Shown in pieces: positions 8,995 to 64,000 of a stretch of DNA of 64,000 nt (positions are counted from its first letter, which is position 1; each line of letters opens with the position of its first letter). The notes beneath the pieces were generated by a model. It was not told where the DNA came from and made no database searches. It was given only the letters and a program-made list of their open reading frames with translations. A program made the position numbers and the translations under genes. This DNA is from Heliocidaris erythrogramma (taxonomy: Eukaryota; Echinodermata; Echinoidea; Camarodonta; Echinometridae), in assembly GCA_025617745.1 (NCBI GenBank), contig CM046869.1, positions 14,217,168 through 14,281,167 of the forward strand, written 5' to 3'.

Positions 8995-11401
8995 AATAAT
9001 TTGGATATTTAAAGAAGTGACAGCAAAGTCAGATTAACTGTGGTGTATTGGGTAATTACTCAGTAATGTTCTTGCTGTTTCATTGCAATTATGCTATTAC
9101 TGGGAGGAGAGGAGAGGAGAGTATAGGCAGTTGCACCAACATGACAGGCTTTCCCTATTCTTGATTCTCCATGATCTTTGGGCACTCCTGCCCTTCCTAA
9201 ACCCATTATAGTATAAACTGTAGTGAGCCATGAAATTTTGATTTAAAGTGTTTGATTTTGTTACACAAAACAAATTAAAGGGCTGGTGACATTTGTCCGA
9301 TAACGCTAACAAGATTTTCAATGAAAGGTACACCCTAGTATATGGCGAGTATGTGTAAGTATGCTCATGATTGTTATCAGTAGGGCAGCTCTATGGTGTA
9401 CTTTTAATGAAAAATCTTGTTATTCACTACGAACATAACGAACAAAGAAGCGGACAAAATATACAGCTCCTCATTGTACCTTCCACAATTGCTCTGGTAG
9501 ACAATAGAACATCCCTTCATTGCTATTATGTAAAAGTATGTAGAACATGTGTCACATGCATATTCACCTGTTCTACTTATTTTACATAATAGCAATGAAG
9601 TGATGTTCTTTTGTCTACCAGAGCAATTGTGGAGGGTCCAATGAGGAGCTGTATATTTTGTCCGCTCTCTTTGTCATCGTGTTCATAGTGATTGCTATCG
9701 TACAAATGTGACCAGTCCTTTATACCAACAGTTTGATCATCAAGACAGTCTGATTATCCTTATACTCTGATAACATTTTAAATACTCATTTAACATTTTA
9801 ATGTTTGAACTTGAGACACCTTTCTCAATGTTATGTCACCAGTAAGATGAAACGCTTCAGTAATTTGGTGGAGTACTATTTGACCTTTGTCCTTTGACCC
9901 TTTCCAGCTGAAAGGAGAGGTGCGTAAGAACCACAGGTTACGTATAGGCTCATACAGTCAGCACTCAGCAGATCAGCTTACTATGGATGTTAGCCCTGTA
10001 GAGTATCTCCAGGTGAGTTTATTTATGGTCCTACATTCCTTAAGAGCCTTGATTTTTTTTTTCTCTCTCTCTGTTTGTGGGGTGCCATGGTGGTAGTCTG
10101 CATTGAGGATATCTGCTTTATATATTGATTTTGTTAATTGAAAGCAGAAGTTTGAATATGAGTATTGCTCTCAAAATGAAGTAAAAGTTACATATAGGAT
10201 CATACAGTGAGCACTCTGCCAATCAGCTTACTATGGATGTCAGCCCTTTAGAGTACATACAGGTGAGATTATTTATGGTCTAATATTCCTAAGAGGTTCC
10301 TAAAAAGTCCTTACACCTCCTCTATGCCAAAGAATATGAATGTTGAACAATGTCTTTGGTCCAAAAATGTGTACTTTTTTTCGTTGTGAAACAGAAAATG
10401 GGTACCATCATGATAGTAAAATTCATTCCCATGAAGATATATGCCCAATTTAAGAGTGAAAAAAATTTTGTAGAAAATGGAACAGTAACACTTGATAGAT
10501 AATTTATGACAATTATTCACAAACTTGGCGGCGCATGGTTAATGGGAAAGTCCACCCTGATTACAAGTTGATTTTAAAAGAAGCAGAAAAAATAAAGAAA
10601 CCGATCAGTGAAGGTTTGAGCAAAATACAATAAGAAATAAGAAAGTTATGAATATTTGAATTTGTAACCAATCAAACATAAATTGGCAACTCAGTGACAT
10701 ATCTTGGGAGCTCCTCTCCCGTTTGCCCTGTATCCCCCAAAATCATCATTTTCCATTTTCTCTGAAGAAAATATTCAATCATACATGCACCTTTAAACCT
10801 CAACTGGTCCGGAGGAAGCTGTCTGATTTTTGGCTACAAAGGAAGGCTTGGGAATAAGACAAACACCTTGTCTTTCCCAACGGATGTGACCGGGAGAGGT
10901 GCAAAGGGCATAAGATTACCCATTGGTCATTATGTCTTTATACAAAACCTGTTTGTGTGGGGTTCCAAGTTGGAATTCTATTTTATACATGTATGATAGT
11001 GAGAATTATTACTGTGATATGAATAATTCTAATATTATATGTATGTGTTTATCATCATAATTATAGGAGTGATTTCTAAGGAAAATATCACTGTTACCAT
11101 TCACATAACCTTGTTCATGTATTTTTAATGTGTGTTTTCAAAATTGAGTAGTATTAAAGTAATTTATAGTTTAATATTAATCCACTTTGGATCACCCACA
11201 GACCACTTAAACAATATCTTGTATTTGCAGACAAAATACAACTTGCAGTACCAGGACAGCCGTAAGCTTCTTGGTCGGTTTGGACTGGTCAGTCATGCTC
11301 ACACCATCAAGACCAAAGACTTGTCAGGTGGTCAGAAGTCCAGGGTAGCCTTTGCTGACCTGTGCCAGAGCCAGCCAGATCTCATTATCTTGGTAAGGAG
11401 G

Positions 11402-11485
<84 letters not shown>

Positions 11486-12973
11486 GTATTGATAATGATG
11501 ATTGTGATGCTTAAAAGTAATTAAGAGTTTTTAGTTTTTGAGTTCAATGCAGGGGGTTGACTTTTTGGCATAAACGACAGTTGGCTTGCCTTTTTTGTTC
11601 ATTCATAGAAATTGTAATCTTTTAGTCTCGTTCCCATATTATGATGCGGTAAACTGCCTGTAAGAAAAATGCTGCTTCAAAAATAAAATGACTTCCAGTT
11701 AGTGCACCTAGCATTTCCGTATCTTACAACACATGGATAAGTGAGTATGCTTAGTGGCCTTTGTTACGCACATATATACCTTTTCTCACCACACTGGGCC
11801 ATTCATTTACAAATAGAATTGTTTTTATTTTGCTGTGGCCGTTTACTGCATCATTTGTAAATAAGCCTTTAGTATGAGACTGGATTTTAACATGGAAGAT
11901 AAAGGCAGTTTATAAATATTTATAATCAAGATTTAAATTTGATTTAATTCTGCATTCATATTTAGAGAGTCAAGACAATCTCTCTAGCCATGCAGTTTTC
12001 AGTTTAATTCTGGATGTAAAGGGTGTGAAAGTACCAGGTAGATTGTCCTTTCTATATTATGCTTGTCTTCTATAGGATGAACCTACCAACAACTTGGATA
12101 TCGAGTCCATCGATGCCTTGGCTGAAGCCATCAACAATTATACCGGAGGTTAGTTGTAGCCATCTCATTTGAAGTTTGTGAAATCGTTAGTTATGGGAGG
12201 TTGCCGTTAACCCCTTCCAGGCTGTGGGGAAAAGATCCCACCAAATGATTGAAATGTTTATGCTGTATTATCTGTTGAGAGGCAGAAAGGTGCTAACTGT
12301 TTGCAAAATGTATGAGTTAATGCCCTTCTGGTTCTCAGCACACGATATGTATGTTTAGCATAAGTTGAGCCATTTCTTTTTCCTTTAAGAGAGAGAGAGT
12401 TACATGATATCTGAACTTTGATAACTTGAAAAATATTTGATTTCCAATTTAGACTTTTGAATACAATTTGATTTTGTTATTGCACACATCACCATGACTC
12501 CAGCTCCAGTTATCTCAGGTTTAGAATTCAACCACTCAACAGTGAAATGACAAAGAAATGAAGCTTTAAATTGACTTTTGTAGGCTTATTGTTAATAGAT
12601 AATTGCCTCTATAGAGGGTTCTCATGGCAGCCGTGCTAGAGGACATAACAATAAAAACCTGTGCATCAGACTATGAAAAGCCATTGTTGTCATGGTCATG
12701 TTTTTATTGTTATGTCCTCCTGCATGGCTGCCTGTGGAAACCCTCTATAAGTGTGACTGAAGTTTGATGTCTGAATACCCTCATAACAAAGTCACTATCT
12801 CTTTTTACCCCTTACCAGGAGTAATCATCGTCAGTCACGACGCTAGACTAATAACGGAGACAGACTGCCAGCTGTGGGTCATCGAAGACCAGACCATCAA
12901 TGAGATCGATGGCGACTTTGACGACTACAAGCATGAACTCCTGCTAGAACTCGGAGAGCTTGATAAGAAATGA
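468..12973 (+). CDS. ABCF1: ATP-binding cassette sub-family F member 1 (ABCF1), 3' part, 15 exons
   Basis: This is the C-terminal part of ABCF1, a cytosolic ABC-F ATPase without membrane segments; the family is known to act with ribosomes and eIF2 in translation initiation. Exons: 468-530, 950-1015, 2274-2356, 3311-3394, 3899-3987, 4363-4398, 5413-5474, 5898-5948, 7314-7488, 8300-8374, 8627-8697, 9908-10012, 11231-11392, 12076-12148, 12819-12973. All junctions are GT-AG with matching phases and give 449 codons before TGA. ABC domain 1 shows signature SGGWRMR (about residue 60), Walker [13 protein letters not shown] (79-90) and H-loop SHD (112-114). A Lys-rich linker (exons 5413-7488) with LLKRPKEY follows. 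ABC domain 2 shows Walker [10 protein letters not shown] (266-274), signature LSGGQKSR (351-358), Walker [13 protein letters not shown] (371-382) and SHD (404-406). The human protein is about 845 residues, so the N-terminal region and Walker A of domain 1 lie before the window. All visible catalytic motifs are intact. I recognise it with high certainty from the family motifs and the linker. Confidence 0.97.
1573..1959. mobile_element. hAT-type MITE in an ABCF1 intron
   Basis: The 387-bp element starts TAGGACTGCACGATATC and ends in the inverted counterpart GATATTGTGCAGCCCTA. It is flanked by GTTCTGTC (1565-1572) and GTTCTGTT (1960-1967), an 8-bp target duplication with one mismatch. TAGGGCTGCAC ends with an 8-bp duplication are typical of nonautonomous hAT elements. 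No transposase coding is present. Confidence 0.85.
2046..2190. repeat. (CT)n microsatellite
   Basis: A long, nearly pure CT tract grades into a CTCTAT-type tract about 85-230 bp before the acceptor of the ABCF1 exon at 2274. Open frames across it encode only Ser/Leu runs and are not genes. Confidence 0.95.
2637..2710. repeat. (CAT/CAC)n trinucleotide repeat
   Basis: An imperfect trinucleotide tract in an ABCF1 intron. On the minus strand it creates a Met-rich open frame that is not a gene. Confidence 0.9.
3427..3575. mobile_element. Short foldback MITE, GATTGGCTgagagc family, copy 1
   Basis: The element starts GGTCCCTTTTCATAAAAC and ends with the inverted GTTTTATGAAACAGGGCCC. The internal core GCTCTTAGCCAATCAGATGC is the reverse complement of the core seen in the other copies. 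It lies in the ABCF1 intron after exon 3311-3394. Confidence 0.75.
4484..5119. mobile_element. TTAA-flanked foldback element
   Basis: Ends AGGGAAATTAACC and GGTTAATTGTCCT are inverted and each abuts TTAA (4480-4483 and 5120-5123). TTAA target sites fit Kolobok- or piggyBac-type nonautonomous elements. It sits in an ABCF1 intron. The interior is not recognised. Confidence 0.55.
6168..6216. repeat. (AATCA)n pentanucleotide repeat
   Basis: About nine tandem copies of AATCA in an ABCF1 intron. Confidence 0.9.
6604..7206. mobile_element. TTAA-flanked MITE with arms of about 230 bp
   Basis: Flanked by TTAA at 6600-6603 and 7207-7210. The ends are AGGCCAAGTCCACCCTAAC and its inverse. The arms (about 6604-6835 and 6975-7206) are almost perfect reverse complements, with very few mismatches by eye, around a loop of about 140 bp. 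There is no coding capacity. TTAA target sites fit Kolobok or piggyBac relatives. It lies inside the ABCF1 intron before exon 7314, so the pre-mRNA would form a very long hairpin. Confidence 0.9.
7552..7660. mobile_element. Short foldback MITE, GATTGGCTgagagc family, truncated copy
   Basis: Shows GTTTCATAAAACTTGTCATC, then the core TTTGATTGGCTGAGAGCAAA shared with the other copies. The right inverted end is missing. Confidence 0.6.
9279..9722. mobile_element. Nested foldback element in an ABCF1 intron
   Basis: Outer inverted ends AGGGCTGGTGACATTTGT and ACAAATGTGACCAGTCCTT, with TTAA before the left end. Inside lies a second near-symmetric inverted repeat (about 9425-9692) whose arms carry CTCCTCATTG and CACAATTGCTCTGGTAGACA. 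The inner unit is shared with a second copy at 27075-27349. Confidence 0.75.
10184..10295 (+). repeat. Tandem duplicate of ABCF1 exon 9908-10012 with its donor site
   Basis: The segment repeats the 3' two-thirds of the upstream coding exon with scattered substitutions and continues about 30 bp into the copied intron. It keeps a usable GTGAGA donor at 10263. Read in the ABCF1 frame it gives [21 protein letters not shown], against S-Q-H-S-A-D-Q-L in the real exon. The 5' part and the acceptor of the parent exon are missing, though a TACATATAG precedes GATCATAC. A pseudo-exon is likely; use as an alternative exon is not excluded. Confidence 0.85.
10543..10760 (+). mobile_element. Fragment of a TTAA-type foldback element
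   Basis: Begins TTAATGGGAAAGTCCACCCT and then CAAGTTGATTTTAAAAG, the same end layout as the TTAA-flanked elements elsewhere in the window. I could not define the right end. Confidence 0.45.
11405..11485. repeat. (GAT)n microsatellite next to an ABCF1 splice donor
   Basis: A pure GAT tract starts about 12 bp after the donor of exon 11231-11392 (TTG|GTAAGG). The open frame of Met residues across it is an artefact. Confidence 0.95.
12610..12749. mobile_element. Short TA-flanked foldback MITE
   Basis: Inverted ends TATAGAGGGTT and AACCCTCTATA. The arms of about 48-54 bp share GAGGACATAACAATAAAAAC and its inverse. The TA at each edge suggests a Tc1/mariner-type target. It lies in the last ABCF1 intron. 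Confidence 0.75.
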
Positions 12974-47531: not shown

Positions 47532-49198
47532 CAGTAAAAAGATTTATTAATATGATTACTAAAATGCATTTTGTTTATTGATTTTAAGAGAAATAAATCA
47601 TTCCAAATATTTTGGGTTTGGAAATTATGATTTCATGGCATCGTCATTGTACAAAGTGTTTTGTTGTATTTCTAGAGAAAATAAGTCAAACACGTCTTTT
47701 TACAGTAGCGTAGATCCCCTTGAAGGGTTGAATTCTACCCCCTTTGCAATTTTCTCTTTTCTTTTCTTTTTTTTTCGATTCCCAAAGTTTAATTTCTTTG
47801 GAATTTATCATCATGAAAAGAATCATATGTGAACTGTAAGTTCGGAAACATTTTCGTCCATGAGATATTTATGATTGAGTGAAGCAATAAATTGTAACAC
47901 CAAAATGATATCCATCGTTGTTCTTTTAATCCTCCAAAACAATTAACTCTTAATAATAATCATTACACGACTTCTCAAAAATGCATGCGTTGCAACATTT
48001 TAGAGGTTGAGTTTTACGTGCAATTAGGAGAATCCAATGTCCTTGTATGAATTAAATAAACGCAACAAAAACCGTCAAGCGATGGATAATAAACAACAAC
48101 AATATGCACCAGAAACCGAATTCACTAAATCTCGTTTCACAGAATCCCCAAAATGCCCCTTGTGACTTTTGAAAAGTGACACTTTTGCCCAATGTTTGCC
48201 CACTCATGCATGACTCGACGGATCAATCTCAAGTTTACAGGGAAGTTGGTCAGTAAGGGTACGGATACTCTTGCCAAGTTATTATGCTCACAACCTTTTC
48301 ATTAAGAAGTTACGCCAATTGATTAAGGGGGGAAGTTGCCGGGGAAGTTGCTTTTTTTATTGTGTTTAGTTTAAACATCTTTTGTTTATCCTTCCGTCAC
48401 CATTACAGTGTATATGGTTTATAACAGGGGAGCCTACTTTTACCCAGCGCATGGATTATTATTTTCCAGGTTCTTGCGTTCTGTCTATTTATGGCATGAA
48501 AACACGCTCTTTTATAAGTCGAATAAGAAAGTGCCTAGTTTTATAATAACAAATTGCAAAAGTTGAGGGTTTTGAAACTGAAAATACTATACGCAAATGG
48601 TTTCTGATAATAACATAGCAATGATGATTGTTTGAATTTACTGCTCAGTAAACATTTGACAGAAAGTACATGTACATTCATTAAATCTGTGAGCGACACT
48701 GTGATTGTTAAGGATGGGACACCTTTATTAATCATGATTTTGACACCAATGTCAGTCTTCAGTTTAGAATGCCCCCTTAGACCCCCTCATATTAAATTAT
48801 TTGTTGATGCATTTTCGGGCTCATGCCCTCCCCATTCTCCAATGGTTTAAAAACATTAGAAAATAAATAAAGAACAGAAGGGGAAAGAGAGAGGAAAAAA
48901 TGAAGGGTGGGTCGGGAAGATGAGAAGATCATGTATCAATATAAACAAACAAAGAAATCTCAACAAAAGTACATACATAAACCAAAACCAAAAGCACACC
49001 CCCACCCCATGAATATTTCCATAATTTGTTATTCTGATTTCATTACAAACATTTAACTTATTCTTTAAAATGCGATTATTTTTCCACTTAACTGATAACA
49101 AAATACAATTCTTTTTCAGTAAACTTAATTCATGAACAATTCATACATTGACTGAATAACAAACAAAATTGAATGAAGACACTTATATATATAACCCC

Positions 49199-49222
49199 AC
49201 ACACACACACACACACACACCT
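49199..49222. repeat. (CA)n microsatellite
   Basis: A CA dinucleotide tract in the probable 3' untranslated part of the older LINE, continuing as imperfect CACA-rich DNA to about 49300. Confidence 0.9.
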
Positions 49223-49296
49223 CATCATCATACACATACACATCACTCATCATACACACCGACACACACTATAGACACCTGCACACATACACACAC

Positions 49297-50938
49297 TTAC
49301 ACACTGACTGCCATCAGTCTTGATGAATTAAAAGATAAATGACTTGACACTGGTTGTACATGTAGTTCAATGCTTTCCCATTTTTGTAGATGTTTACCTA
49401 ACTTGTTTCTTTTTATAGCTAACTCCTTTTCCTCATCCCTATATTCCAATATTATTTTAAACAAGTTATCTAGTTTGGGAATTGCGCCCTCTGAACGTGA
49501 CCGAAATATGATATACTTAATTATAAAAATTAGAGTATTGCAGCACTTAATCCTAAATGAATTTCCCATTATACCAACATGAATAGTTTCCCACTGTACG
49601 TTTTGTAGTTCTACTAACCCTAATCTTTCTATCACTCCCTGCCACAAAGGCTTAACATATACACAATCCCAAAATAAATGTGAGTATGACTCATTCATTT
49701 GTTTACAAAAAGAGCACTGGTCATTTTCAACAAAGCCAAATCTTAACAGATGTTCTTTTGTATAAATTGCTTTCCCATTCCATATATGAATTCAAAACAT
49801 AACTTCTTAACTTCAGCTACCACCCATTTCGGAACTACTAAAGCTGAAGAAACATAATTCAGTTTTGACAGAGCAAACGTTTTAAGTAGATGAATTTTCT
49901 CCATCACGGTCAAATCCCTTTGCTTCCACCATCCCAAAAGTCTTTTTATTTTACTGAGTATCTCTTTATAGTTAAGTTCCTCCCTAATTCTTATATTTAA
50001 TGAAAAATACACTCCTTAAATTTTCATTTCTGTTACTGTATTTCCCATAGGAAATGTTTGTGAACCCCCTATGCTTTTTTCCTAACCTCATGATATTTGT
50101 TTTTTCAATATTAACTTTTAGACCACTTAATTCAGAAAAAGCCTGGAAAATATTTTTTATTCTCTAAACGGAACTTTCATTTTTAACAAATAAAGTCATG
50201 TCATCAAGGTACAAGATTGTCGAATTTCAAAATCACCAAACTCTACACCTTTGATTATATTATCATTTCTTAATGTATGTGCCAATATCTCAATTACTAA
50301 CAGGAACAGATATGGAGAAAGTGGGTCACCTTGCCTCACCCCTCGCTTAATATCAAAATATCCGGTCGAGAAACCTCCATTCATAACGCAACTACTGATT
50401 CCATTGTACATTGTTTTAACCCATGAACAAAAAGACGGACCAAAACCAAATAATTCTAGAACTTTGAAAAGGAAATTGTGGGAAACAGAGTCAAAAGCCT
50501 TTTCAAAATCAACTGCAATTAAAAAAATATCTTGCTCACAATTAATACTATGAAAAATCATATCGTCTATCAAACGTTTTGCTTCTTCAATATATCTGTT
50601 TTTCATATAACCCACTTGATCTATATAAATGAATGATTTCATTTAAAACATCTTTAATTCGGGTTGCCATAACCTTTGCAAGTATCTTGTAGTCTGCATT
50701 TAATAATGTGATCGGTCTATAATTTTTAATATATAATGGATATTTATCTTCTTTTTCAATCAACGTGATTACACCTTGTTTCTGGGATGTCGATAATCTT
50801 CCCATATCAGCAGTTTCATTAAAAACTTCAACCAAAAGCTTCCCTATCTGTGGCCAAAAAGTAAGATAAAATTCTATTGTAAATCCATCATTTCCAGGAG
50901 ATTTATTAGTTTTCATGCTCTTTAACGCTTTATGACAC
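49297..50938 (-). mobile_element. Older L1/Tx1-type LINE, ORF2 3' part (degenerate)
   Basis: Continues the ORF2 of 53598-55000 after an inserted transposon. RT motifs seen: MKTNKSPGNDGFT, NYRPITLLN, FLIAVDFEKAFDSV and GVRQGDPLSPYLF. The catalytic box appears as YLDD, in a shifted frame just after a frameshift near 50200. Several frameshifts and stops are present. Between about 49790 and 49770 the frame jumps from CFEFIY to TKEHLLRFGF. Compared with the younger LINE, about 250-300 codons of the connection domain are missing. The C-terminal zinc-knuckle region (CSFC...HLFWDC) and KHLQKWE end remain. It is nonfunctional. Confidence 0.9.
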
Positions 50939-53597
50939 CATAGGCTTAGGAAATCTTGGGGGGGGGGGGCTCAGATATCATTGAGCCCCCCCCCCCCAAA
51001 AAAAAAAAAAAAAAAAAATCATTATATTCTAGGCATGAAACTCATGTATACCTATCATCTACAGACTTACCATTCAAATATAAACATTTTATAAATATTT
51101 ATTTGGGGAAGGGGGGGGGGGGCTCAGACATCGGATCTCGCATATCATTGACCCCCAAAAAATATATTTGGTGGATCTCGGATATCATTGAGACCCCCAA
51201 ATATTTTGGCGGGACTCTGATATCATTGAGCACCCCCCCCCCCCCCTCCCCATATTTTGGTGGGGCTCAGATATCTTTGAGCCCCCCCCCCCCAATATTT
51301 TGGTGGGGTTCAGATATCATCAGACCCCCAATTGTTTTTGGTGGGGCTCGGATAACATCACGGAGCCCCCCGATATTTTGTGGGGCTCGGATATCATTGA
51401 GCCCCCACTATTTGTGTTGAATCTCGGATATCATTGAGCCCCCCCCCCAATATTTTTGCGGGGCTTATAGATATCATTGAGCCCCCCCCCCCCAACAAAT
51501 TTTTTTTTTGGTGGGGCTTAGATATCATTGAGCCCTTAGGGGCTCAGATATCATTGAGCCGCCCCCAATACTTATTGCGGGGCTCGGATATCATTAACCC
51601 CCCTCCTCCCCAATCATTATATTCTAGGCATGAAACTCATGTATACCTATCATCTACAGACTTACCATTCAAATATAAACATTTTATAAATATTTATTTG
51701 GGGAGGGGGGGGGGGCTCAGACATCGGATCTCGCATATCATTGACCCCCCCCCCCCAAAAAAAAAAAAATATTTGGTGGATCTCGGATATCATTGAGACC
51801 CCCAAATATTTTGGCGGGATTCTGATATCATTGAGCACCCCCCCCCCCCTCCCCATATTTTGGTGGGGCTCAGATATCTTTGAGCCCTCCCCCCCCCCAA
51901 TATTTTGGTGGGGCTCAGATATCATCAGACCCCCAATTGTTTTTGGTGGGGCTCGGATAACATCACGAACCCCCCGATATTTTCGGATATCATTGAGCCC
52001 CCACTATTTGTGTTGGATCTCGGATATCATTGAGCCCCCCTCCCCCCCCCCCCCAATATTTTGGCCGGGCTTGGTATTCATGAGTCCCCCAATTGTTTTT
52101 GGTGGGGCTCGGATAACATCACGGAGCCCCCCGATATTTTTGTGGGGCTCGGATATCATTGAGCCCCCCCCCCAATATTTTTGCGGGGCTTATAGATATC
52201 TTTGAGCCCCCCCCCCCCCCAAACAAAATTTTTTTTGGTGGGGCTTAGATATCATTGAGCCCCCAATATTTTAAGTGGGGCTCAGATATCATTGAGCCGC
52301 CCCCAATACTTATTGCGGGGCTCGGATATCATTAACCCCCCTCCTCCCCAATCATCATATTCTAGGCATGAAACTCATGTATACCTATCATCTACAGACT
52401 TACCATTCAAATATAAACATTTTATAAATATTTATTTGGGGAGGGGGGGGGGGGGCTCAGACATCGGATCTCGCATATCATTGACCCCCCCCCCCCCCCC
52501 CAAATATATTTGGTGGATCTCGGATATCATTGAGACCCCCAAATATTTTGGCGGGACTCTGATATCATTGAGCACCCCCCCCCCCCCATATTTTGGTGGG
52601 GCTCAGATATCTTTGAGCCCCCCCCCCCCCCCAATATTTTGGTGGGGCTCAGATATCATCAGACCCCCAATTGTTTTTGGTGGGGCTCGGATAACATCAC
52701 GGAGCCCCCCGATATTTTTGTGGGGCTCGGATATCATTGAGCCCCCACTATTTGTGTTGGATCTCGGTTATCATGAGCCCCCCCCCCCCCATATTTCAGT
52801 TTTTTAATGTCCGATTATAGGCATGTGTGACATGTATTATTAGTATTAGTATTATTTTTTCCAAAGGTGTTAAATGTGTTTTTTTTAACACCTAGTACTT
52901 TGTCTAACTTAATAAAAATAAACTGAATATCTTACAATTCAACGATTTCTTCAAGTAGGCCTACTTTTATTAATTTCTTCAACTGCTCAAAAGAAAGGCT
53001 ACAAATGCTTTTTTATCAAGTCATTATATCGACAAATTTCGGCTCGCGCTTTGCGCTCGCATGGTTTAACTGCATATTCCGAACGTGATCAGCGTCCTAG
53101 AACCTCCGACGCCATACTTGTTTAATCTATTTAACCCATGTTAAAATGATTATTTAAGGGGATTTTAAAATAAGGGTTTAGAATGCAGTGATTTCAGGTC
53201 ACTTTATCGAGAGAGAAAAAAAAAATCAGCTCGCGCTATGCGCTCGCATGATTTTATTGCCTATTGGGTATATAATTTAGACCCAAAAGGCAAAAAATAC
53301 TGTGTTTCCAGGTAACTGCCCCCCCCCCCCGCCCCCTCTCCCTAGTGGTGGTCTAAAAATGGGGGTAGAGCAAAGAGAGAAGAAAAAGGAAGGCTTAACA
53401 ATTTACGCAAAAAGAGACTCTAAAAAGGCGCCAAAACAGCCAAAAAATGACGTTTTGGACGGTCTAAAATGGTGACAACGGGGGGGGGGGGGGGCAGTCG
53501 GGGAAAAAAAAATCTTCAAACGGCGGGTCAAAAAACAAATGATCGAGCCCCCCCCCCCCCCCCCCCCCCCATTCCTGAAAATCTTCCTAAGCCTATG
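50939..53597. mobile_element. DNA transposon carrying a satellite array, inserted in a LINE
   Basis: Left end CATAGGCTTAGGAA at 50939; right end TTCCTAAGCCTATG ending at 53597. The flanking GACAC at 50934-50938 and 53598-53602 is a 5-bp target duplication. Removing the insert and one GACAC rejoins the LINE ORF2 reading (E-C-H-K-A-L-K), which confirms the boundaries. The element is 2659 bp without any transposase-like coding. The inside is a G/C-tract satellite (50960-52790), then a unique part (52800-53580) with two GCTCGCGCT(T/A)TGCGCTCGCA motifs. The superfamily is not assigned. Confidence 0.9.
50960..52790. repeat. G/C-tract hairpin satellite with higher-order repeats
   Basis: Roughly 35-40 units by eye of the form GGGGCTC(A/G)GATATCATTGAG + CCCCCC + (A)ATATTTTGGTGG. 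Each unit is an imperfect hairpin (GGGGCTC...GAGCCCC). Three higher-order copies are marked by a conserved spacer of about 95 bp starting ATCATTATATTCTAGGCATG at 51018, 51613 and 52351, so the periods are about 595 and 738 bp. Long open frames through it (Gly-Ser-Asp-Ile-Ile-Glu-Pro-Pro repeats) are by-products of the unit and not genes. Confidence 0.93.
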
Positions 53598-55000
53598 GAC
53601 ACTCATCTATGGTAACTTTCCCTTCACAAGAAATTCTGCTTCCATCATCCAATTTGGGGATATTCTTACACGTGTTATCAATGAATACATCTCCTATCGA
53701 GGTTCTTTCAGAATACAAATTGTCATAAAATGATCGAATTATTTGCATTATAACATTTCTTTCTTTTACTATTTCCCCTTTCTCATTGCACAGTTCCCGT
53801 ATAATTGTTTTCTTTTTGTTCCACTGAAGTAACTGTTCGAAATATTCTTTATTCTGTTCACCTTCTTCGTACCAAGCTGCTCTTGACCTAACTTTTAGTC
53901 CCTCTACACGGTTATTATATATAATTTCTTTATAAAACTAATCTTTTTATTTTCAATGTCTTTAATAATAGTAAAACTTTCAGCAGAAGTCACCAAATCT
54001 TTCTCAAGCATTTTTATTTCATTTTCAAGTTGTTCTATACAGTCAAGTCCTTTTCTCTTTTGATTTTTTTCTTGAAAACTTCATTGCAAAACTTCTCATT
54101 TTCATTTTAAGAAAATCCCCAAAAGACGATTTAGATTTGAATTCCTTTAACCACTTTCTCTCTATCGTTCGTATTTCCTCTAACGAAAATCTCTATCTAA
54201 GCATAAACTGTTATTGAATTTCCAATACGACTTTCCGTTTCTTTCATAGCTCCTAGTAGGTTTCAATTAAAAAAAGATGCTCGAATGGTCAGGAGTTATT
54301 GATGTTATTATATCACAATTAGTTACTCTAGTTTCTAAACATTTTGAGATGAACCAATAGTCTAAACGACTTTGGATCAATGGATTATTTTGTCTAAAAG
54401 TAAATTTCTTAATTCGTGGGTTCTGTTTCCTCCATATATCAATTAAGCCTTGTTTCTTTAAAAATATCTCCAAATGGTCTACAAAGGTAGTTCTCACGTT
54501 AACATTTCTTCCAAAATAATCTAAGTCTTTATCTATTATTACATTAAACTCTCCCCCCCCCCCCAAAAAAAAAAAAAAAAATAAATAAATAAATAATCGA
54601 ATAATTACAAGACAACAGCTCAGAAATACAGCTATCTAATTGTTGTAAAAAATCTACTTGTTGTTGTACCTTTTCCCTTATCGGGAAATAAACATTTCCT
54701 AGCAATACATTTCTCCCATTAAGTCTCCTTTGAGGAATATAAAGCGTCCGTCATTATCTTTCACCACCCTTTACATCTTGATATTTAATCCCGGGGCTGG
54801 TAAAACAAGTACACCTTTGCTGTGATTTGTCCCGTGACTGAAAATTAATTGCCCTTCCCAATCCTTTTCCCAATCTCCCTCAATATCCTGTGAACTATAA
54901 GTCTCTTGTAATAAAATTATATCACCTCTTTTCTCTCTAATCCAATCAAACTCCGTTTCCTCTTGTGTCTGTCCCTTATACCCCTGAAATGAAATTTAAA
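53598..55000 (-). mobile_element. Older L1/Tx1-type LINE, ORF2 5' part (degenerate)
   Basis: Matches the endonuclease part of the younger LINE. FRGIRDRHKRKR (about 54990), LLQETYSSQDIEG, FSHGTNHSKGVLVL, DLDYFGRNVN, DIWRKQNPRIKKFTFRQ, SRLDYWF and ITPDHSSI all appear, but spread over several frames with stops. It continues through a frameshifted coiled-coil linker to CEGKVTIDEC, where the 50939-53597 transposon interrupts it. It is an inactive copy, older than the inserted element. Confidence 0.88.
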
Positions 55001-55542
55001 CCCTCCGTAACATATGAACTATTTTAAACAAACAACCCGAGCGGGACAACCTTTTATCAATTAAACAATCTAGCAAATCGAATACTGTTGCTCCAATGTC
55101 AGTGAAAAAATCTAAGCATCTAAAAACTAACTCTCGAGAGTGGAATATATAAATTTGTATTTTCATTACAAGAATGAAGGCAGCCACACACACACACACA
55201 CAGCACGACACACAGCACGACACACGCCCGTTTACATGCATGCTTTACTTCCGAGGACAACTATTGTTCCTCTATTGTTACTCGTCCTCGGACAGTCGAC
55301 GGAATAAGGCATAAATTCATTGTTCGACGTTCGAGGACTATTGTCCGCCTTCCGAGGACCATTGTTGTCATGATTTTTTTTTTGTTCTCTGTCCGAAAAT
55401 GTCCTCGGACATAATGCTAAACAAACGCACCCATCACCCCAACGAACATCCAAACCCTGCTTAACATGCTCTACCGCACACACACACACACACATTGTAG
55501 TGCGAGAGCCTGAGCCCCTCCCTTCCCCGTCATATAACTTAA

Positions 55543-56130
55543 AGGGCAATCCAACCTTGGTAATAAGTTGATTTGTGTGAAAGCAGAAAAATAAGAAAAA
55601 ACAGGATGATGAAATTTTGAAAGAAATCGGACAAGGAATAAGAAAGTTATGGATGTTTGATAAATGAGATCACTACATCTATGCGAATCTCAAATTGGCA
55701 ATTTGGTGAGTCGATTGTGACATACTTGTGGACAACTCTCCCATTTGTCGTACACAAATTTATCATTAATTTGCGGTTTTCTCCGAAGCACCTTTACCCT
55801 CGGGGCAGTACTCAAAATATATTGGAGATAGCATATTGTTACAGGTCCTCATGAAAGAAAAAGATCCTACTAATTAAAACATTTTGAAAAAAGTGACATT
55901 TTAGTCATTTTAAGTGTTGGAGCGAATGGAGGAGTTGTCCACAGCTACATCACAGTGACATTACCTATTCGGCCAATTTGAAATTCCCATATGTATAGTG
56001 ATTACAACTTTCAAAAATTCATAACTTTCTTATTGCTTGTCCGATTTCGTTTAAACTTTCACCAAACTGCTTCTCTGATTTTTCCTCTTTCTTTCAAAGC
56101 AACTTGCTATTAAGGTTGGATTTCCCTTTT
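55543..56130. mobile_element. TTAA-flanked foldback MITE with imperfect arms of about 200 bp
   Basis: TTAA (55539-55542), then AGGGCAATCCAACCTTGG; the right end is CCAACCTTAAT's inverse followed by CCCTTTT and TTAA (56131-56134). The arms share GAAATCGGACAAG, AATAAGAAAGTTATG and CTGTGGACAACTC with their inverses. Arms are more diverged than in the 6604-7206 element, so this copy is older. Confidence 0.85.
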
Positions 56131-56384
56131 TTAAACTAAATTCCGACTATAATTCCAAACCTTTATCCTATAAGACCCAGCCGCATATCGATACTAGTAT
56201 ATTTTACTGGTTGTGTTGTTATGCATATATAAATAAATCTACAGTACATTGATGTGCATTCCGTAAAAAGTGGTGTCATTTGCATTCCCAAATTAATTAA
56301 ACCTTTGGGGTAGGGACAATTTTTTTTTTCGCCAAACTTCCAAAAAACGCTCATTAAAGGGGTTATGGGGCCCAGTTTCCCTCC

Positions 56385-57320
56385 CTGCCAATCCAGTTTC
56401 AGCAAAACATACCCTCGTGTGCACTCAAATGCAAATTCTCATGCTATTAAACCATTCATGTGAAAAATGCAGTAAATTCAATGCATTATGCATCTATCCT
56501 ATGCATGTAAATAAGCTTGTGACAGGACAGTAAACTCAGCTCTGCCATCCCGTTTCAGCAGAACATACCCTCATTTCGACTCCATGCAAATTCTCATGCT
56601 ATTAAACCATTCATGTGAAAAATGCAATTAACTCTTCCTTCCCATGATGTTCCAATCGAACTACTGTCTGTGTACCTGGTAATAATTATATTTTTAGTTA
56701 AATACCAACAAATAACTTGCCCAGTAAAATCAATGCATGATACATCTGCCCTATGCAAATAAGCTGGTGAAAAAAAAAACCCAAAACAATATTCAACTTC
56801 GCCAAATTAGTTTTTTAACAAAACATACCCTCGTGTGCACTTCATACAATTGTCATACTAAACCATGAAACTCAATTAACTCTTCTTTTTTCCATTTTTT
56901 AAAAACATATTGACCGAACATTTAGTTAAATACTAACAAATAACTTGCCCAGAAAAATCAGTGCATGATTCATCTGCCCTATGCAAATAAGCTGGTGACA
57001 AAAAAAAATAGTAAATATTTAACTTCGCGAAATTAGTTTTAGCAAAAAAAAAAATGCACTAATACAATTCTCATACTATTGAACCATGAATGTGAAAAAT
57101 ACCATTAGCTCTTTTCTTTTTTGTTGTTGACATTCCCCCATGATGTCTCAACCGAAACTACTGTTTGCGTGCCCAGTAATCATTTTTTTTAGTTAAATAC
57201 TAACAAATACCTTGCCCAGTAAAATCAGTACATGATTCATCTACCCTATATGCAGATAATGTGGTGACAGAGCATCAATTATTCCGCTCTGCCAGTCCAG
57301 TTTCAGCAAAATATACCATC
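56385..57320. repeat. Degenerate tandem repeat, units about 160-260 bp
   Basis: The marker TTTCAGCAAAACATACCCTC recurs in diverged form near 56393, 56556, 56806, 57031 and 57299. CTATGCAAATAAGCTGGTGA and TTCTCATGCTATTAAACC recur with it. Coding potential is absent. Pieces of it lead in from GCCAGTTTCCCTCC-type DNA that also occurs near 32825. Confidence 0.75.
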
Positions 57321-57885
57321 AATTTCCCATCTCGTTATCACCCCATAGCTTCTATTTTCACATAGTACGGGAAAGCAGTATCACATATATAAAGTTCCAC
57401 TGTAAATCAACCTCGCACTTCATATGTATGCTAGCTACAATAAGACATCGGTTCACCAACTTCTTGCTTGCAATATCATGTAAAAGACATATTTGAAATG
57501 ATACTATGCAAGTTCCACAAATATACATTTAAATCAAAAACCTGACCACATCCTCCTTTCATATGTAATGCTTATTTAATTGCTTTACTGCTACTATTTC
57601 TTTACATTTTACCTGTATGAGAGAAAGAGAGAGAGAGAGAGACAAGAAGAAAGTACCCCCTGGAATCCCTTCCTTCTTTCCATTTTTCATAAGAAACTGA
57701 TTCAAGATGTCTTTATAATAACTTCAGTGTTATCGACCCCTTTCCTTTCCTCTTCCGGTCTCTCTACTCTTGCTCTTAAAATATATACATGTATAATTAT
57801 ATAAGTAACATTTTCACTTTCTTTATCCACTATTCTGCATGAATAACAAAATCTTAACTGGCCGTGCAGGAATCAGAATATTCCG

Positions 57886-58804
57886 CTATAACATTTTTTT
57901 TGTTTTTTTTTTGTGCATATTAATTGAAACTCTGTTCTCCATAAAACGTCTTCCTCCAGAAATCACGTTGAAAACCCTTAGTACAATGCAGAAAAAATAT
58001 CTTACCTTTAACGTGTTATGAACACCGTTGTATCTAACTTTCTCCTTCCATTCGCTCTCCTGGCAGACTTTCCATGAAGTTTTTCTGGTTTGCGACTGGC
58101 AGCCATCTTTATCCACAAACAATTTCGTAGGTTCAGATCTCGAAAAGTATGCCAGCTTTCCCGCCCTTCTCGCTGCAAATAAAGCCGGCATCTGTGCTTG
58201 TCTTGCCATTCTCATGCGCATAGGAATATCTTCCCTGATGGACAATTTTGATCCTTTCAAATTTTTTGCATTCCGCATGATTCGTGCGATACGTTGATAG
58301 GGATAACATTCCGCATGATGTTATCCCTATCAACGTATCGCACGAATCGTGCCTTGATAGGGCGTGGCGTCGACTTCGTAGTAATTCTATATGTACCCGT
58401 TGATATTCTATTTTATTCGCATCCCCTTCAGACAATTTCAGTGCGTTTTTGTAGAAATCTTTCATAACTTCCTTTATGTCTTCACCTTCCTTTTCTGGCA
58501 GTCCCATGAAAATCAGATTCTCTCTTGCCACGTATGCAGACAACTTATCGATTTCCACTTGTAGAGCCGATTCCTTTTCCACCACTTTCGCTTTCATCAT
58601 CTTCAGTTTTTCCTTCGTTTCCTCTAACTCTTTACTTTGAAAGGCAACGGCTTCTTTCACTTCTCTGAATTGTGTATCAATCTGTTTCACATGTTCTTTT
58701 AAACTGCCTTCGAAAGATGAAAACCTTTCCTCAAACCTTTCCATTTGCTGCTCAAGCAGCATTCGAATGGTGGGAAGCAGACTGACATCAGGGGAGCGTT
58801 TCAT
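57886..58804 (-). mobile_element. L1/Tx1-type LINE ORF1 fragment
   Basis: The minus-strand frame from 58804 shows a coiled coil (about residues 20-85, FEERFSSFEGSLKEHVKQID) followed by YVARENLIFMGLPE, the RRM-like core typical of L1-type ORF1 proteins. A frame change at a 30-bp inverted duplication (58280-58347) separates it from the ORF1 C-terminal part, KNLKGSKLSIREDIPMRMRM, read at 57886-58278. The first codons (MKRSP) derive from the neighbouring MITE, so the N-terminus is lost. It is probably the 5' part of the same old LINE whose ORF2 lies at 49297-55000. Confidence 0.85.
58280..58347. repeat. 30-bp inverted self-duplication inside LINE ORF1
   Basis: Arms 58280-58309 and 58318-58347 are exact reverse complements around an 8-bp loop. 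The short direct motif CATTCCGCATGA also flanks one arm twice. It disrupts the ORF1 frame. Confidence 0.93.
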
Positions 58805-58931
58805 GAAAGGAAGTTGTCGGATATTTTATCCGACAACTGTTATAAGCTACTGAAATCCTTGCATCTGATTGGCTGAGAGCAAATTTGTCGGATAAAATAC
58901 CTGACAAGTCCTTTCACGAAACGCCCCCCCC
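58793..58931. mobile_element. Short foldback MITE, GATTGGCTgagagc family, in LINE ORF1
   Basis: Ends GGGGAGCGTTTCATGAAAGG and CCTTTCACGAAACGCCCC are inverted, an inner GTCGGATATTTTATCCGAC is mirrored, and the core is CATCTGATTGGCTGAGAGC. It truncates the N-terminus of the ORF1 fragment. Confidence 0.88.
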
Positions 58932-58946
58932 CCCTGGGCTTGTCGG

Positions 58947-59177
58947 CCCGGGGGGGGGGGGGGTACTCAGATTATAATCGGACGGGGGTGTGCGGCTGAG
59001 AACTCCAGACCCATGCCCACATCCAAGGGTCATTTTGCTGTAAATAGGTACCCATGTCTAAGGATTTTTTTAGGGAAAATGGGACCCATGTCTAAGGATT
59101 TTTCTTCAAAAAGTCACCCTTCCCAGCGGCACATCCCCGTATACCCAATATACGTGAGTACCCCCCCCCCCCCCCCC
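58947..59177. mobile_element. Poly-G/poly-C-ended MITE with 11-bp target duplication
   Basis: Starts CCC plus a G run plus TACTCA and ends TGAGTA plus a C run, so the ends are inverted. GGGCTTGTCGG is duplicated at 58936-58946 and 59178-59188. An inner direct repeat of GACCCATGTCTAAGGATTTTT-type sequence (CCCATGTCTAAGGATTTTT twice) is present. Elements with GGGGGTACTC ends are common in marine invertebrate genomes; this is my recollection, not a search result. Confidence 0.75.
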
Positions 59178-59321
59178 GGGCTTGTCGGGGAACCGGCTTC
59201 AGCTCGTGGCCTCTTCACATTCCCCTTCCCGCTACGTGAACCACTTGCCATGCTCCACAAAACACGTCTTCACTCGCCCATATCACTCGCACACCTACAC
59301 GTCTTCCGTAAAAAAACCCAA

Positions 59322-59344
59322 CACACACACACCCACACACCCAC
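59322..59344. repeat. (CA)n-rich tract at the 3' end of the younger LINE
   Basis: CA-rich simple sequence directly beside the LINE poly-A tail. Confidence 0.8.
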
Positions 59345-59346
59345 AC

Positions 59347-62300
59347 TTTTTTTTTTTTTTTTCAAATGTTTTTATTGATTTCATCAACATAGAATTAACA
59401 AAACATGTAAAATTTCTTTTTTCTTATAACAATTTTCATATATAAACATAACATGTATAATGTACTAACAAATATTTACAAAAAGCAATGAAATCTATAA
59501 TAAAGATAAGATCCCCACCCGTCTCCGAGAAAAGAGAATACAGAAGTATTAAGAGTGTAATTATGTTTGCTAGAACCACACACATTAAAAAAAAAAAAAA
59601 TACTAAATAAAAAAAAAAACGAATTAAAGTACATAGAGTGAAATAAATCTTACCCTCCCCCCAAAAATGGGAAAGTAGAATACAGTAACACCTTCTCGGA
59701 CCCACCCCCTCCATACATACACGCATACATACCCACGCAACCACACACACACACACACACACATACATTTAGCATTAAGGTTAACCGTTCACAGTCACAT
59801 TTACCTTTAGTCCCTCCCATTTACCCAGATGTAAGGCAATCTTGCCTGTTTTGATGGCTAACTGCTTTTCTTCCTCTATAAAATCCATAATTTTTTTCTG
59901 CATTTTTGCTTTTGAAGGTAGGTGTCCTGCCCTTGATTTAAAAATTATCTGTTTTACCCAGATCATGATAGTATTCACACTTTTTATTCTATTCGAGTTA
60001 CCTGAAAGACCTAAAAATATATCTTGCCATCTCATATCCTTAATTTCAACTAAACCAAAATGTTTAATGATAGATTCCCATAGTTCCCTCACCCTCTCAC
60101 AATTTAAAAATAAGTGTAAGTATGTTTCTTTGTCTTTCTTGCATAAAGAACAAGAATCATTATCAACGAAACCAAACTTCATCAAATGAACTTTTGTGTA
60201 AATGACTCCGTGTAATAGCATGAATTGAAATTCCCTCTGTTTTCTAATAAGTGTTGTATTTTTGGCTGCTAGAAATAAATCTCTTAGTTCTTTATCTGTT
60301 AAATCAACATTATTACTATCATATTTTACTTGTAAATTAAATGAACTCTGTAAATCCCTGACAAAACATTCATAGATTCTTTTCGATTTTGCAGCATGAA
60401 ACATTGTAGTTTGACCAAAAATATTTAGGTTTATATAAAAATTCGAGAAATCCACTTGTTGGAATTTAACCGCCGGGGTTGCACTCTTCCAACTGGAGGG
60501 TATGACATGTGCAATTTCTATTATTTGAAGTAATTGAGATGAATTCAATCCCAGATTTGTAAAATGTGCTAGAGGTTTCATATGACCATTATCAAAAATG
60601 TGGTCTATATGGAATATACCTTTATCAAATAAATCTTTTTCAAATAGCATTTTACCATGAATACATATATTACTATTATTAAATATCAGAGGATTCATTT
60701 CATTTTCGGAGTATTTGAATTTACTCATATCCTGCCAGACCCTCAGCATTTCTAAATAAAATGGAGGTATTTTCAGTAATAATTTTGATATGTCATAATT
60801 GCATAAAAACAAAAATCTCCCCCCTCTTGCTCTAACACAATAGTCAAAGTATAATTTCCAACCAGCACTGTTTTCACCATATAATAAACGTTTCAACCAC
60901 ATTACACGTTGTGTCTTAATAAAAAGTCTGAAATTCATCATTCTTAGTCCCCCATCGACATAGTCCTGATACATCACGTTCCTCTTTATACGATCTTTTC
61001 CCGTCCATAAAAATTCAAAAGTAATTCTTTCAATCTCATCAAACACCCACTGTGGAACTACTATCAGGGACGAAACATAGATTAATCTCGACAATGCATA
61101 CGTTTTTAACAAATGTATTTTGCCCATGAGGGTTAAATCCCTCTCTTTCCACCACCCTAAACGTCTTTTTATTTTACTAAGTATTTCCTTGTAATTAAGA
61201 TCATCTTTTTTATTCTTATCTAGAGAAAAATATATACCTAATATTTTAACCTCTTGAACTAGGTTTCCAAACAAGTGAACGTGAGAACTTTGACTATCTT
61301 TACCCATCCACAAAAAATTAGTTTTTTCTTTATTAATTTTTAAACCACTAACTTTCCTAAATTCTTCAAGAACATTTTGGAGCCTATTTATTGAATTACT
61401 ATCTTTTACAAAAAGTGAAATGTCATCAGCGTACAATATTTGTTTTACTTCATTGTTCCCAAAAGTAAATCCCTTTATGGTATTATCCCTCCTTATTTCC
61501 AAAGCCAAAACTTCAATAGCTAATACAAATAGATATGGCGACATAGGATCTCCCTGTCTTACTCCTCTATTTAAACTAAAATAACCTGTAGAATAGCCTC
61601 CATTCATTATGCAACTAGAAATATCTGTGTAAAGCACCTTCACCCATGAACGAAACATTTGACCAAAACCAAATGATTCTAAGACACTAAATAAGAAATC
61701 GTGAGAAACTGAATCAAATGCTTTTTCAAAGTCAACTGTAACCAAAAAGCCCATATTTTGATACCGTGAATTAAACAACATGTCATCAATTAATCTAACC
61801 GCTTCTCCTATATTCCTTTCTTTGATATAACCAACTTGGTCGTAGTGAACAATTTCATTTAACACTTCTTTTAATCGTTTTGCTAATACACCTTAGATAA
61901 TATCTTATAATCTACATTCAAAAGTGTAATGGGTCTATAATTTTGAACATACCTTTTATTTTTTCCTTCTTTTTCCAATAGTGTAATTACACCTTGCTTT
62001 TGTGATGTTGACAAGTTTCTCCTATCATAAGCTTCGTTCAATGTTTCGACCAAAGTTTCTCCCAGAAATGACCAAAAAGTATAATAAAATTCAACTGTAA
62101 AACCGTCATTTCCTGGAGATTTATTATATTTCATTTCTTTTAATACATTGAGACATTCATTTTCAGTTACTTTTCCTTCACAACTCTCCTTGTTTTCCTG
62201 ACTTAATTTTGGGATATTATCAAAAAATTTACTATTCCTATCACCAGTCAATTCATCGTTTGAGTATAACTTTTCATAAAATGATTTCATAATAAGTAAT

Positions 62301-63559
62301 ATTTCTTTACGGTTCTCTGTTAACTCTTCATCTTGGTTATATAATTCTTTTATCACGATTTTTCTTTTATTGGACTTCAATAACTGTTCAAAGTATTTTG
62401 TTTTCTTCTCCCCTTCTTCAAAATATTCAGCTCTTGAGCGGATTTTTAAACCTTGTTGGGAAAATTCAAAGAGTTTACTTAACTTAGATTTCTTTTCATC
62501 TATTTCTGTGACTATATCTCTAGACGATACTGTCAAAAGCTGATTTTCCAAATGCTTTATTTCTTCTTCTAATTCATTAATTTCAAGTTTTCTGATCTTT
62601 GCTTTTTTCTTTGAGAAATTGACAATATATTCCCTCATTTTCATTTTCAGAAAATCCCATCTTACTAGTTTATCAGATATTTGACACTCACATTCTTTTT
62701 TAAATTCAATTATTTTTTCTTTGAAACTATTTATAAATTCCTGGTCTGCACACAAACTATTATTGAATTTCCAGTAGGATTTACCAAATTCAGGAGTTTC
62801 CGAAAAATTTCGAAGTCGCAAAAGTATAGCTGAGTGATCCGGTGTAATTGACGTCAAAATTTCACAGGTTTGAACAAAATTTTGTAAAATGGACGAACCA
62901 AACCAATAGTCTAAACGACTTTGTATGACTGGCCACTTTTGTCTGAATGTAAATTGTTTTCTATGTGGATTTCGTTTTCTCCATATATCTACAAGACTAA
63001 ATCTATTAAGGAAATCAGTAAAATTGTCATTGAACTTGGTTTTTAAAACTTCCCTAGAACCTGCATAATCCAAATCTCCATCCATTATTGTATTAAAATC
63101 GCCACCTAACAAATAAATGTATCCATTACCATGCAATTCCGAAATGCATTTATCCAATTCTTCTAAAAACTCAAGTTGCATTTTTTCTTTATCTCTCGTG
63201 GGAAAATAACAATTGCACAACACTAGCTTAGTCTCTTGAACTTCCAATTTAATTACAATATAACGCCCATTCTTATCTCTTACAACATTTTCAATCTTCA
63301 AATTTAAATTTGGAGATATAAGAATTAAAACACCTTTGCTGTGGTTAGAACCGTGACTAAAAAATACAGGGCCATTCCACTCTGATTCCCACTTTTCTTC
63401 TACCTCAATTGTACTATAAGTCTCTTGAAGTAAAGTAATGTCACTACCTTTACATTTACACCATTCAAAAATATTCTTCCTCTTGATATTATCCCTTATT
63501 CCTCTTACATTCAAAGAAAGCATACTAAAAGGGGACTTAGCCATGTAAAAACATGCCAC
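59347..63559 (-). mobile_element. L1/Tx1-type LINE, ORF2 almost intact
   Basis: ORF2 runs from ATG 63559 to the stop at 59781-59783, about 1,258 codons with one frameshift. The APE-type endonuclease (about 1-240) has SLNVRG, LLQETY, GGDFNT, SRLDYWF and TPDHSAI, all catalytic positions present. A coiled-coil linker follows. The RT has NKSPGNDGFT, NYRPITLLN, VTVDFEKAFDSV, GVRQGDPMSPYLF and the catalytic YADD. A C-terminal zf-RVT-like zinc knuckle (CSLCKK...HLFLNC) closes it. The frame breaks near 61882: a 2-nt duplication (GTGT for GT) after YKILSKV gives a premature stop, and the reading resumes at 61865. A 3' UTR of about 430 nt ends in a poly-A tail (T-run at 59347-59366 on the plus strand). 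The clade is inferred from motifs; ORF1 of this copy would lie beyond the window. Confidence 0.93.
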
Positions 63560-64000
63560 ATTCCGAAATAACTAGCATTAATGAGATATTTATATACACA
63601 GATTGTACCGCATCATTTTCAGTCCTGCGAAAATATACAAAGTGGAAGATATGTGATAAATGTGAATGTGAACACAAACCCCAAAAGTCAAAACAGTAAA
63701 GTACATCTACAAAATCACACCACCACACACCAATACAATCACCCCACACCCACATAACCACACCTACATTAACGTCAAAGCTAACCTTGACAAGCCAAAT
63801 TGTCATGTCAAATTATTAACGAGCTTCCAACCAACAACTATACGATAACAAAAAAGAATTATCCACATAATCTAACGAAGAAAAAGAAAAATAAACCTTA
63901 TAAATACCCCACTCCCTCCTCTCGACAAGAATGGATAGCGAGAAAGAGAGCCAAAAGAAAACAAAACAAAAACACATGGTGGGGGAAATCATGCTTTCTT
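63560..64000 (-). other. LINE region upstream of ORF2, no ORF seen
   Basis: Lies 5' of ORF2 on the minus strand. It is CA-rich (63715-63770) like the equivalent zone of the older copy (55180-55215), which suggests an inter-ORF spacer. No ORF1 coding is visible before the window ends. Confidence 0.5.

Follow-up and report, generated by a model that had tools for sequence, protein, structure and literature searches.

Positions 50939 to 53597 of the window, by which we mean the whole 64,000-nucleotide stretch of Heliocidaris erythrogramma DNA that was analyzed, are occupied by a DNA transposon of 2,659 bp inserted in an L1-like LINE. Our analysis confirmed that the element is real and correctly placed. 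As the preliminary description had reported, it has matching 14-bp inverted ends and an exact 5-bp target-site duplication, GACAC, on both sides, and the reading frame of its host rejoins without the insert. Namely, when the flanks were joined in a script with the insert removed, a single open LINE frame ran across the site. This empty site aligns unbroken with another LINE of the window (open frame 61883–63571; 58% over 193 amino acids); with the insert in place, the alignment breaks into pieces of 105 and 89 amino acids. No transposase remnant was found in the window copy. The features of the element are collected in Table 1. The second L1-like LINE spans positions 59781–63571 on the minus strand, has two long open frames of 703 and 562 amino acids, and is a paralog of the LINE that the transposon interrupts.

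Table 1. Features of the transposon and its target site, in window coordinates
Feature	Position	Strand	Remarks
Left target-site duplication GACAC	50934..50938	.	Exact match to 53598-53602
Left terminal inverted repeat CATAGGCTTAGGAA	50939..50952	+	14 bp exact; 143 exact genome copies
Left-end satellite array, ~40-bp units in ordered higher-order blocks	50956..52795	+	Fuzzy search, unit typing
First (type a) unit, adjoining left end, 18-bp perfect stem	50956..50999	+	
Spacer copy 1 (~95 bp plus G-run)	51019..51119	+	Matches of locus L021
Spacer copy 2	51614..51714	+	100% identical copies elsewhere in genome
Spacer copy 3	52352..52452	+	
Conserved right region, ~800 bp	52796..53583	+	In whole or part common to 33 paired elements
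Right terminal inverted repeat	53584..53597	-	Exact partner of CATAGGCTTAGGAA
Right target-site duplication GACAC	53598..53602	.	

A fuzzy search counted 36 repeat units in the array of the window copy, with spacers starting 595 and 738 bp apart. Thirty-two of the units could be typed, and in successive blocks they read a, bcdefghijkl, bcdef?hfgiakl, and bcdefg?. The preliminary description had estimated about 35 to 40 hairpin units in three blocks. Both the number and the three-spacer layout hold, but the word hairpin says too much, as only 12 of the 36 units contain a perfect stem of at least 6 bp; two more such stems fall between neighboring units. The array occupies one end only, and the two ends of the element diverge after 14 bp. 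On these grounds a foldback element, which should have long and internally repetitive inverted repeats on either side, was rejected. Open frames of 131 to 182 amino acids cross the array and were judged to be low-stop C-rich sequence.

The family was sought across the source genome (1.06 Gb in 26 contigs). The exact 14-bp end has 69 + 74 matches, compared with 1 + 0 for a reversed-pattern control, and the 21-bp form of the right end has 64 exact matches, or 81 when up to one mismatch is allowed, with none for its control. The window element and 32 pairs found among 100 listed ends provided 33 end pairs, which enclose elements of 1,174 to 5,346 bp (median, 2,550 bp). An exact 5-bp target duplication flanks 27 of these 33 pairs and is absent in 6, and none matches over 6 bp; with permuted right flanks, the mean number of exact 5-bp duplications was 0.93. 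In the initial 520 bases of the right region, alignable in 28 of 35 elements, the median pairwise identity is 98.3% (range, 91.6 to 99.8%), and from this identity over part of the right region we conclude that the family is young. The window copy stands somewhat apart, with a median identity of 97.1% in the right region.

Among the 81 right-end matches, eight have the sequence CATAGGCGTAGGAAGATTTTC, and none of these eight lies near a listed exact hairpin (C2:47753674, C3:54358262, C3:54424349, C5:23783453, C6:32838393, C7:16343089, C7:47687262, and C9:17496926); these copies perhaps form a sister subfamily that lacks the array. At locus L073 (4700–6099), two family right ends with a shared orientation are separated by 626 bp, and each is accompanied by a right-region match of its own. 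The locus pairs L071/L072 and L076/L077, which have one family end each and similar surroundings (95 to 97% over longer matches), are segmental duplications.

A 101-bp spacer query returned 170 candidates, the best 40 of which were scored, a selection that favors young copies. All 40 lie inside elements with a correctly placed CATAGG end; 30 of them were fetched and checked for ends, and 10 were placed by coordinates. Among them, the left end of L014 has one mismatch, L027 and L028 were assigned from a right end some 3 kb distant, and L035 was placed through L074, a larger locus. A 24-bp hairpin pattern matches exactly at 167 places in the genome, with none for the control; of the first 100 in the list, 93 are accompanied by a correctly placed and oriented end, which in one case has a mismatch. 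In the complete set of A-type hairpins, the end is correctly placed in 47 of 55, or in 48 if one altered left end is counted. Two of the eight end-less A-type hairpins were inspected: one has an altered left end, and the other is surrounded by array sequence, no end being visible there. No free satellite array was seen among the hairpins checked. Most of the copies examined carry the array, and the earlier proposal of a mobile element that spreads a satellite, here to dozens of sites, is well supported by the repeated occurrence of spacer and array between CATAGG ends with 5-bp duplications. The further suggestion that the element seeds free satellites genome-wide is not supported, since most repeats lie within transposon ends.

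Unit types recur across elements in much the same order, roughly aijn, bcdefgh?fghijkl, and bcdmfoh in successive blocks. Between elements, blocks have been gained or lost, and spacers lie 356 to 941 bp apart and number 0 to 5 per element; with its tandem array of variable copy number between inverted ends, the family qualifies as a satellite-bearing nonautonomous transposon. Two loci, L074 and L075, have the same duplication, ATGAA, within a segmental duplication whose flanks are 94 to 99% identical, and the latter has lost its right inverted repeat. Because they share one insertion yet carry 5 and 2 spacers, the array has changed in length after insertion, as judged at the level of the assembly. 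Spacers differ by 1.45% within an element (36 comparisons) versus 2.14% between elements (1,560 comparisons). Since the within-element value is only slightly lower, arrays seem to be inherited mostly as blocks.

Transposase sequence is found within the same elements. The element at L055 (target duplication AGTTC, two spacers) has an open frame of 472 amino acids, which is without the N-terminal part. This frame matches the hAT dimerization domain (Dimer_Tnp_hAT, PF05699) above the cut-off (E = 2.2e-8) and DUF4371 weakly, below the cut-off (E = 5.1e-5). In the PDB, its best match is 4d1q, named only "transposase" (E = 7.4e-8), and it also matches the Hermes transposase, 8edg (E = 1.1e-7). A frame of 426 amino acids at L064 likewise matches the hAT dimerization domain; a search of the 380-amino-acid frame at L009 for the hAT domain gave no match, and the first frame of L062 had no match in Pfam. 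A much longer copy lies on contig C13, between a left end at 14232995, with one base missing, and a right end at 14245522. It measures 12,528 bp, is flanked by AAGAG on both sides, and has hairpins at the left, L062-like internal sequence, and transposase sequence toward the right. In and around this copy, 728 bases were read (L079, L080, and L081) and the remainder was placed by matches, so it may contain extra insertions. The N-terminal part of its transposase matches DUF4371 (E = 1.7e-9), and a PDB search with the transposase N-terminal part returned no match. The gene is broken: it contains one or more in-frame stops, and the two stretches that match do not share a reading frame. No intact full-length transposase was seen, the C13 gene having been read or matched in pieces. 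Further transposase-bearing copies lie on C10 from 36092911 onward, at C18:39052033–39057645, and at C14:2897483–2901000.

The transposase is therefore encoded inside the inverted ends of the family both at L055 and in the C13 copy, and the latter, which joins the array to a broken hAT transposase gene, is the longer relative that the preliminary description had predicted. A transposase piece (L062:1954–2230) occurs at 18 places, 16 of which have an exact hairpin no more than 12 kb upstream in the same orientation; the other two have no such hairpin listed. Since the C13 copy joins both components and 16 of 18 transposase places have an upstream hairpin, we conclude that transposase-bearing copies already contained the array. 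Because these longer copies carry the array, the window copy is best read as a deletion derivative. The C-terminal dimerization domain, in a transposase inside the same inverted ends, identifies the family as a member of the hAT superfamily. Its 5-bp duplication, exact in 27 of 33 pairs, agrees with the hAT5 group, to which we assign it provisionally by this feature.

Locus L062 also contains sequences of other kinds. Positions 560 to 766 hold an inserted short repeat with 36 other matches at 92 to 100% identity (best 40 of 115 candidates scored), many of which are accompanied by a second, inverted piece at a distance of a few hundred bases; this repeat is probably a separate, young, foldback-like element. 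At about 2700 to 4530, a nested insert whose inverted ends resemble CAGGGGCGTATCCAGGA can be recognized by eye, perhaps another hAT.

We consider it highly probable, at roughly 0.87, that the window element is a nonautonomous, internally deleted copy of a hAT5-like cut-and-paste family with an array at its left end. The six of 33 pairs without an exact duplication and the eight of 55 type-A hairpins without an end at the expected place count against this family model. The long form would consist, in order, of a 14-bp inverted repeat, the left array, the hAT transposase gene, the right region of about 800 bp, and the second inverted repeat. In the proposed structure, the left subterminal array would be made of units of about 40 bp in higher-order blocks with the 95-bp spacer between them. 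In shorter copies the transposase gene would have disappeared in large part or entirely, whereas the array and both ends were kept; these copies would presumably be moved in trans by the transposase of longer copies. Their movement would be of the cut-and-paste type, to judge from hAT kinship. Each transposition would plant a ready-made satellite block, whose length may then shift by unequal exchange or replication slippage. The array may, we infer, also have some role in transposition.

One possibility, which we regard as tentative, is that the array is the functional left end of the transposon, its units being repeated transposase-binding or enhancer sites derived from a subterminal motif, with array length tuning mobility. 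In this regard, spacers never occur on both strands of one element among the 33 pairs, and in 35 elements the units have one orientation relative to the right region, start near the left end, and follow a similar order, only that orientation having been typed. A related motif is present just inside the right-end G-run (GCTCG---ATCATT versus GCTCGGATATCATT), but the similarity is weak, being reached by 164 of 5,000 shuffles. By analogy, the Galileo transposase binds tandem-repeat sites in long inverted repeats, according to the part of the report available (PMC3688188). A search of three elements for the Herves binding motif, C[GA]ATTCAT, gave no match. The array also varies widely in content, and L042, L045, and L062 have few units yet lie between proper ends; L045 has no exact target duplication. 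A stronger form of this idea seems to us improbable. In it, a hAT lineage would have turned its left subterminal motif into a higher-order repeat, the satellite being an amplified transposase-binding end. Its copy number would set how well a copy competes for the enzyme, and the growth of the satellite would be driven by selection on mobility.

Just as tentative is the idea that the transposon took up a preexisting satellite, which it now carries as passive cargo. Such a capture model has been proposed for miDNA4 of Xenopus, as far as the consulted portion of that paper shows (PMC12628747), but no source array was seen outside the elements here, the best 40 of 170 spacer candidates all being inside.

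That the units are kept through their folding, as hairpins or quadruplexes, is very unlikely. Some units do fold well as single strands (z scores of −3.6 and −6.5), but the scarcity of clean stems in the window units noted above argues against it, as does the absence of covariation between the arms. When arms were shuffled among 187 distinct units (705 in total, from 35 elements), 879 Watson-Crick cells were counted, compared with a shuffled mean of 878.2 (standard deviation, 11.7), and 488 of 1,000 shuffles were at or above the observed value; the set includes a few chance GATATC or GATAAC matches outside the array, and the fixed register used is imperfect for the GATAAC type. A conserved hairpin structure was therefore rejected, the arms pairing no better than shuffled ones; the structured hairpins of the preliminary description are not supported, and this covariation result already disfavors the folding explanation. 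An Rfam search of the window gave no matches at the gathering threshold. Three canonical quadruplex motifs on the plus strand and five on the minus strand occur in the 1,857-bp array, whereas the initial 50.9 kb of the window contain four and six, respectively; this is a local enrichment, mostly due to long G and C tracts. An assembly artefact, in which satellite and transposon were collapsed or joined, is scarcely credible: the array has many C and G tracts of 10 to 17 bases, some of which may be misassembled, and the evidence comes from the assembly alone, but the same architecture occurs at many sites with different target duplications.

Transposons that carry satellites are already known from other superfamilies, and it is the present family and its ordered repeat block that look new. 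The hAT5 group is defined by a hAT transposase and 5-bp duplications (PMC12730594). The present family resembles it in both its hAT-type transposase and its 5-bp duplications; a large left-end satellite goes unmentioned for hAT5 in the portion consulted (PMC12730594). Herves, a hAT element of Anopheles gambiae, has an unusually long left end with imperfect tandem repeats (PMC3143072), but these are three 100-bp repeats, whereas the present family has tens of units of about 40 bp, arranged in higher-order blocks with a spacer, and its 5-bp duplications depart from the 8 bp usual for hAT elements (PMC12730594). Satellite-like arrays are also found in the miDNA4 and Xstir transposons of Xenopus (PMC12628747), in tandem-repeat MITEs of a clam (a reference within PMC12628747), and in Helentrons of an oyster (PMC7492417). 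Yet miDNA4 is a Tc1/mariner element and the oyster elements are Helentrons, and in the present family transposase-bearing copies carry the array too. Tetris, a foldback transposon of Drosophila virilis, has internal tandem repeats (PMC4079207); these lie within its inverted repeats and gave rise to kilobase-size satellite arrays, whereas the present array is at one end and no free arrays were seen. In Galileo, of the P superfamily, the transposase-binding sites are contained in tandem repeats close to the ends (PMC3688188), whereas the present family belongs to another superfamily and its sites are putative. The one mention of a hAT transposon in a further review, in the part available, is within a reference (PMC9659126). 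Within the literature covered, which yielded precedents from other superfamilies and Herves, we found no hAT family with a higher-order repeat at one end of transposase-bearing copies.

The origin of dispersed satellites is an open question, for which the present family provides a young case. A single genome contains transposase-bearing copies alongside deletion derivatives and variants that differ in array length, and the transfer of an ordered satellite block by transposition, followed by its change in length, can be traced copy by copy. The significance of the family would be greater should the array turn out to work as an end of the transposon.

Two minor features of the window lie outside the element or extend beyond it. 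An open frame at positions 11129–11524 runs into a GAT microsatellite and contains LSGGQ, which we take to be an ABC-transporter signature. Positions 48001 to 64000 have a steady negative GC skew, of −0.16 to −0.28 per 2-kb step, unlike most of the remaining window.
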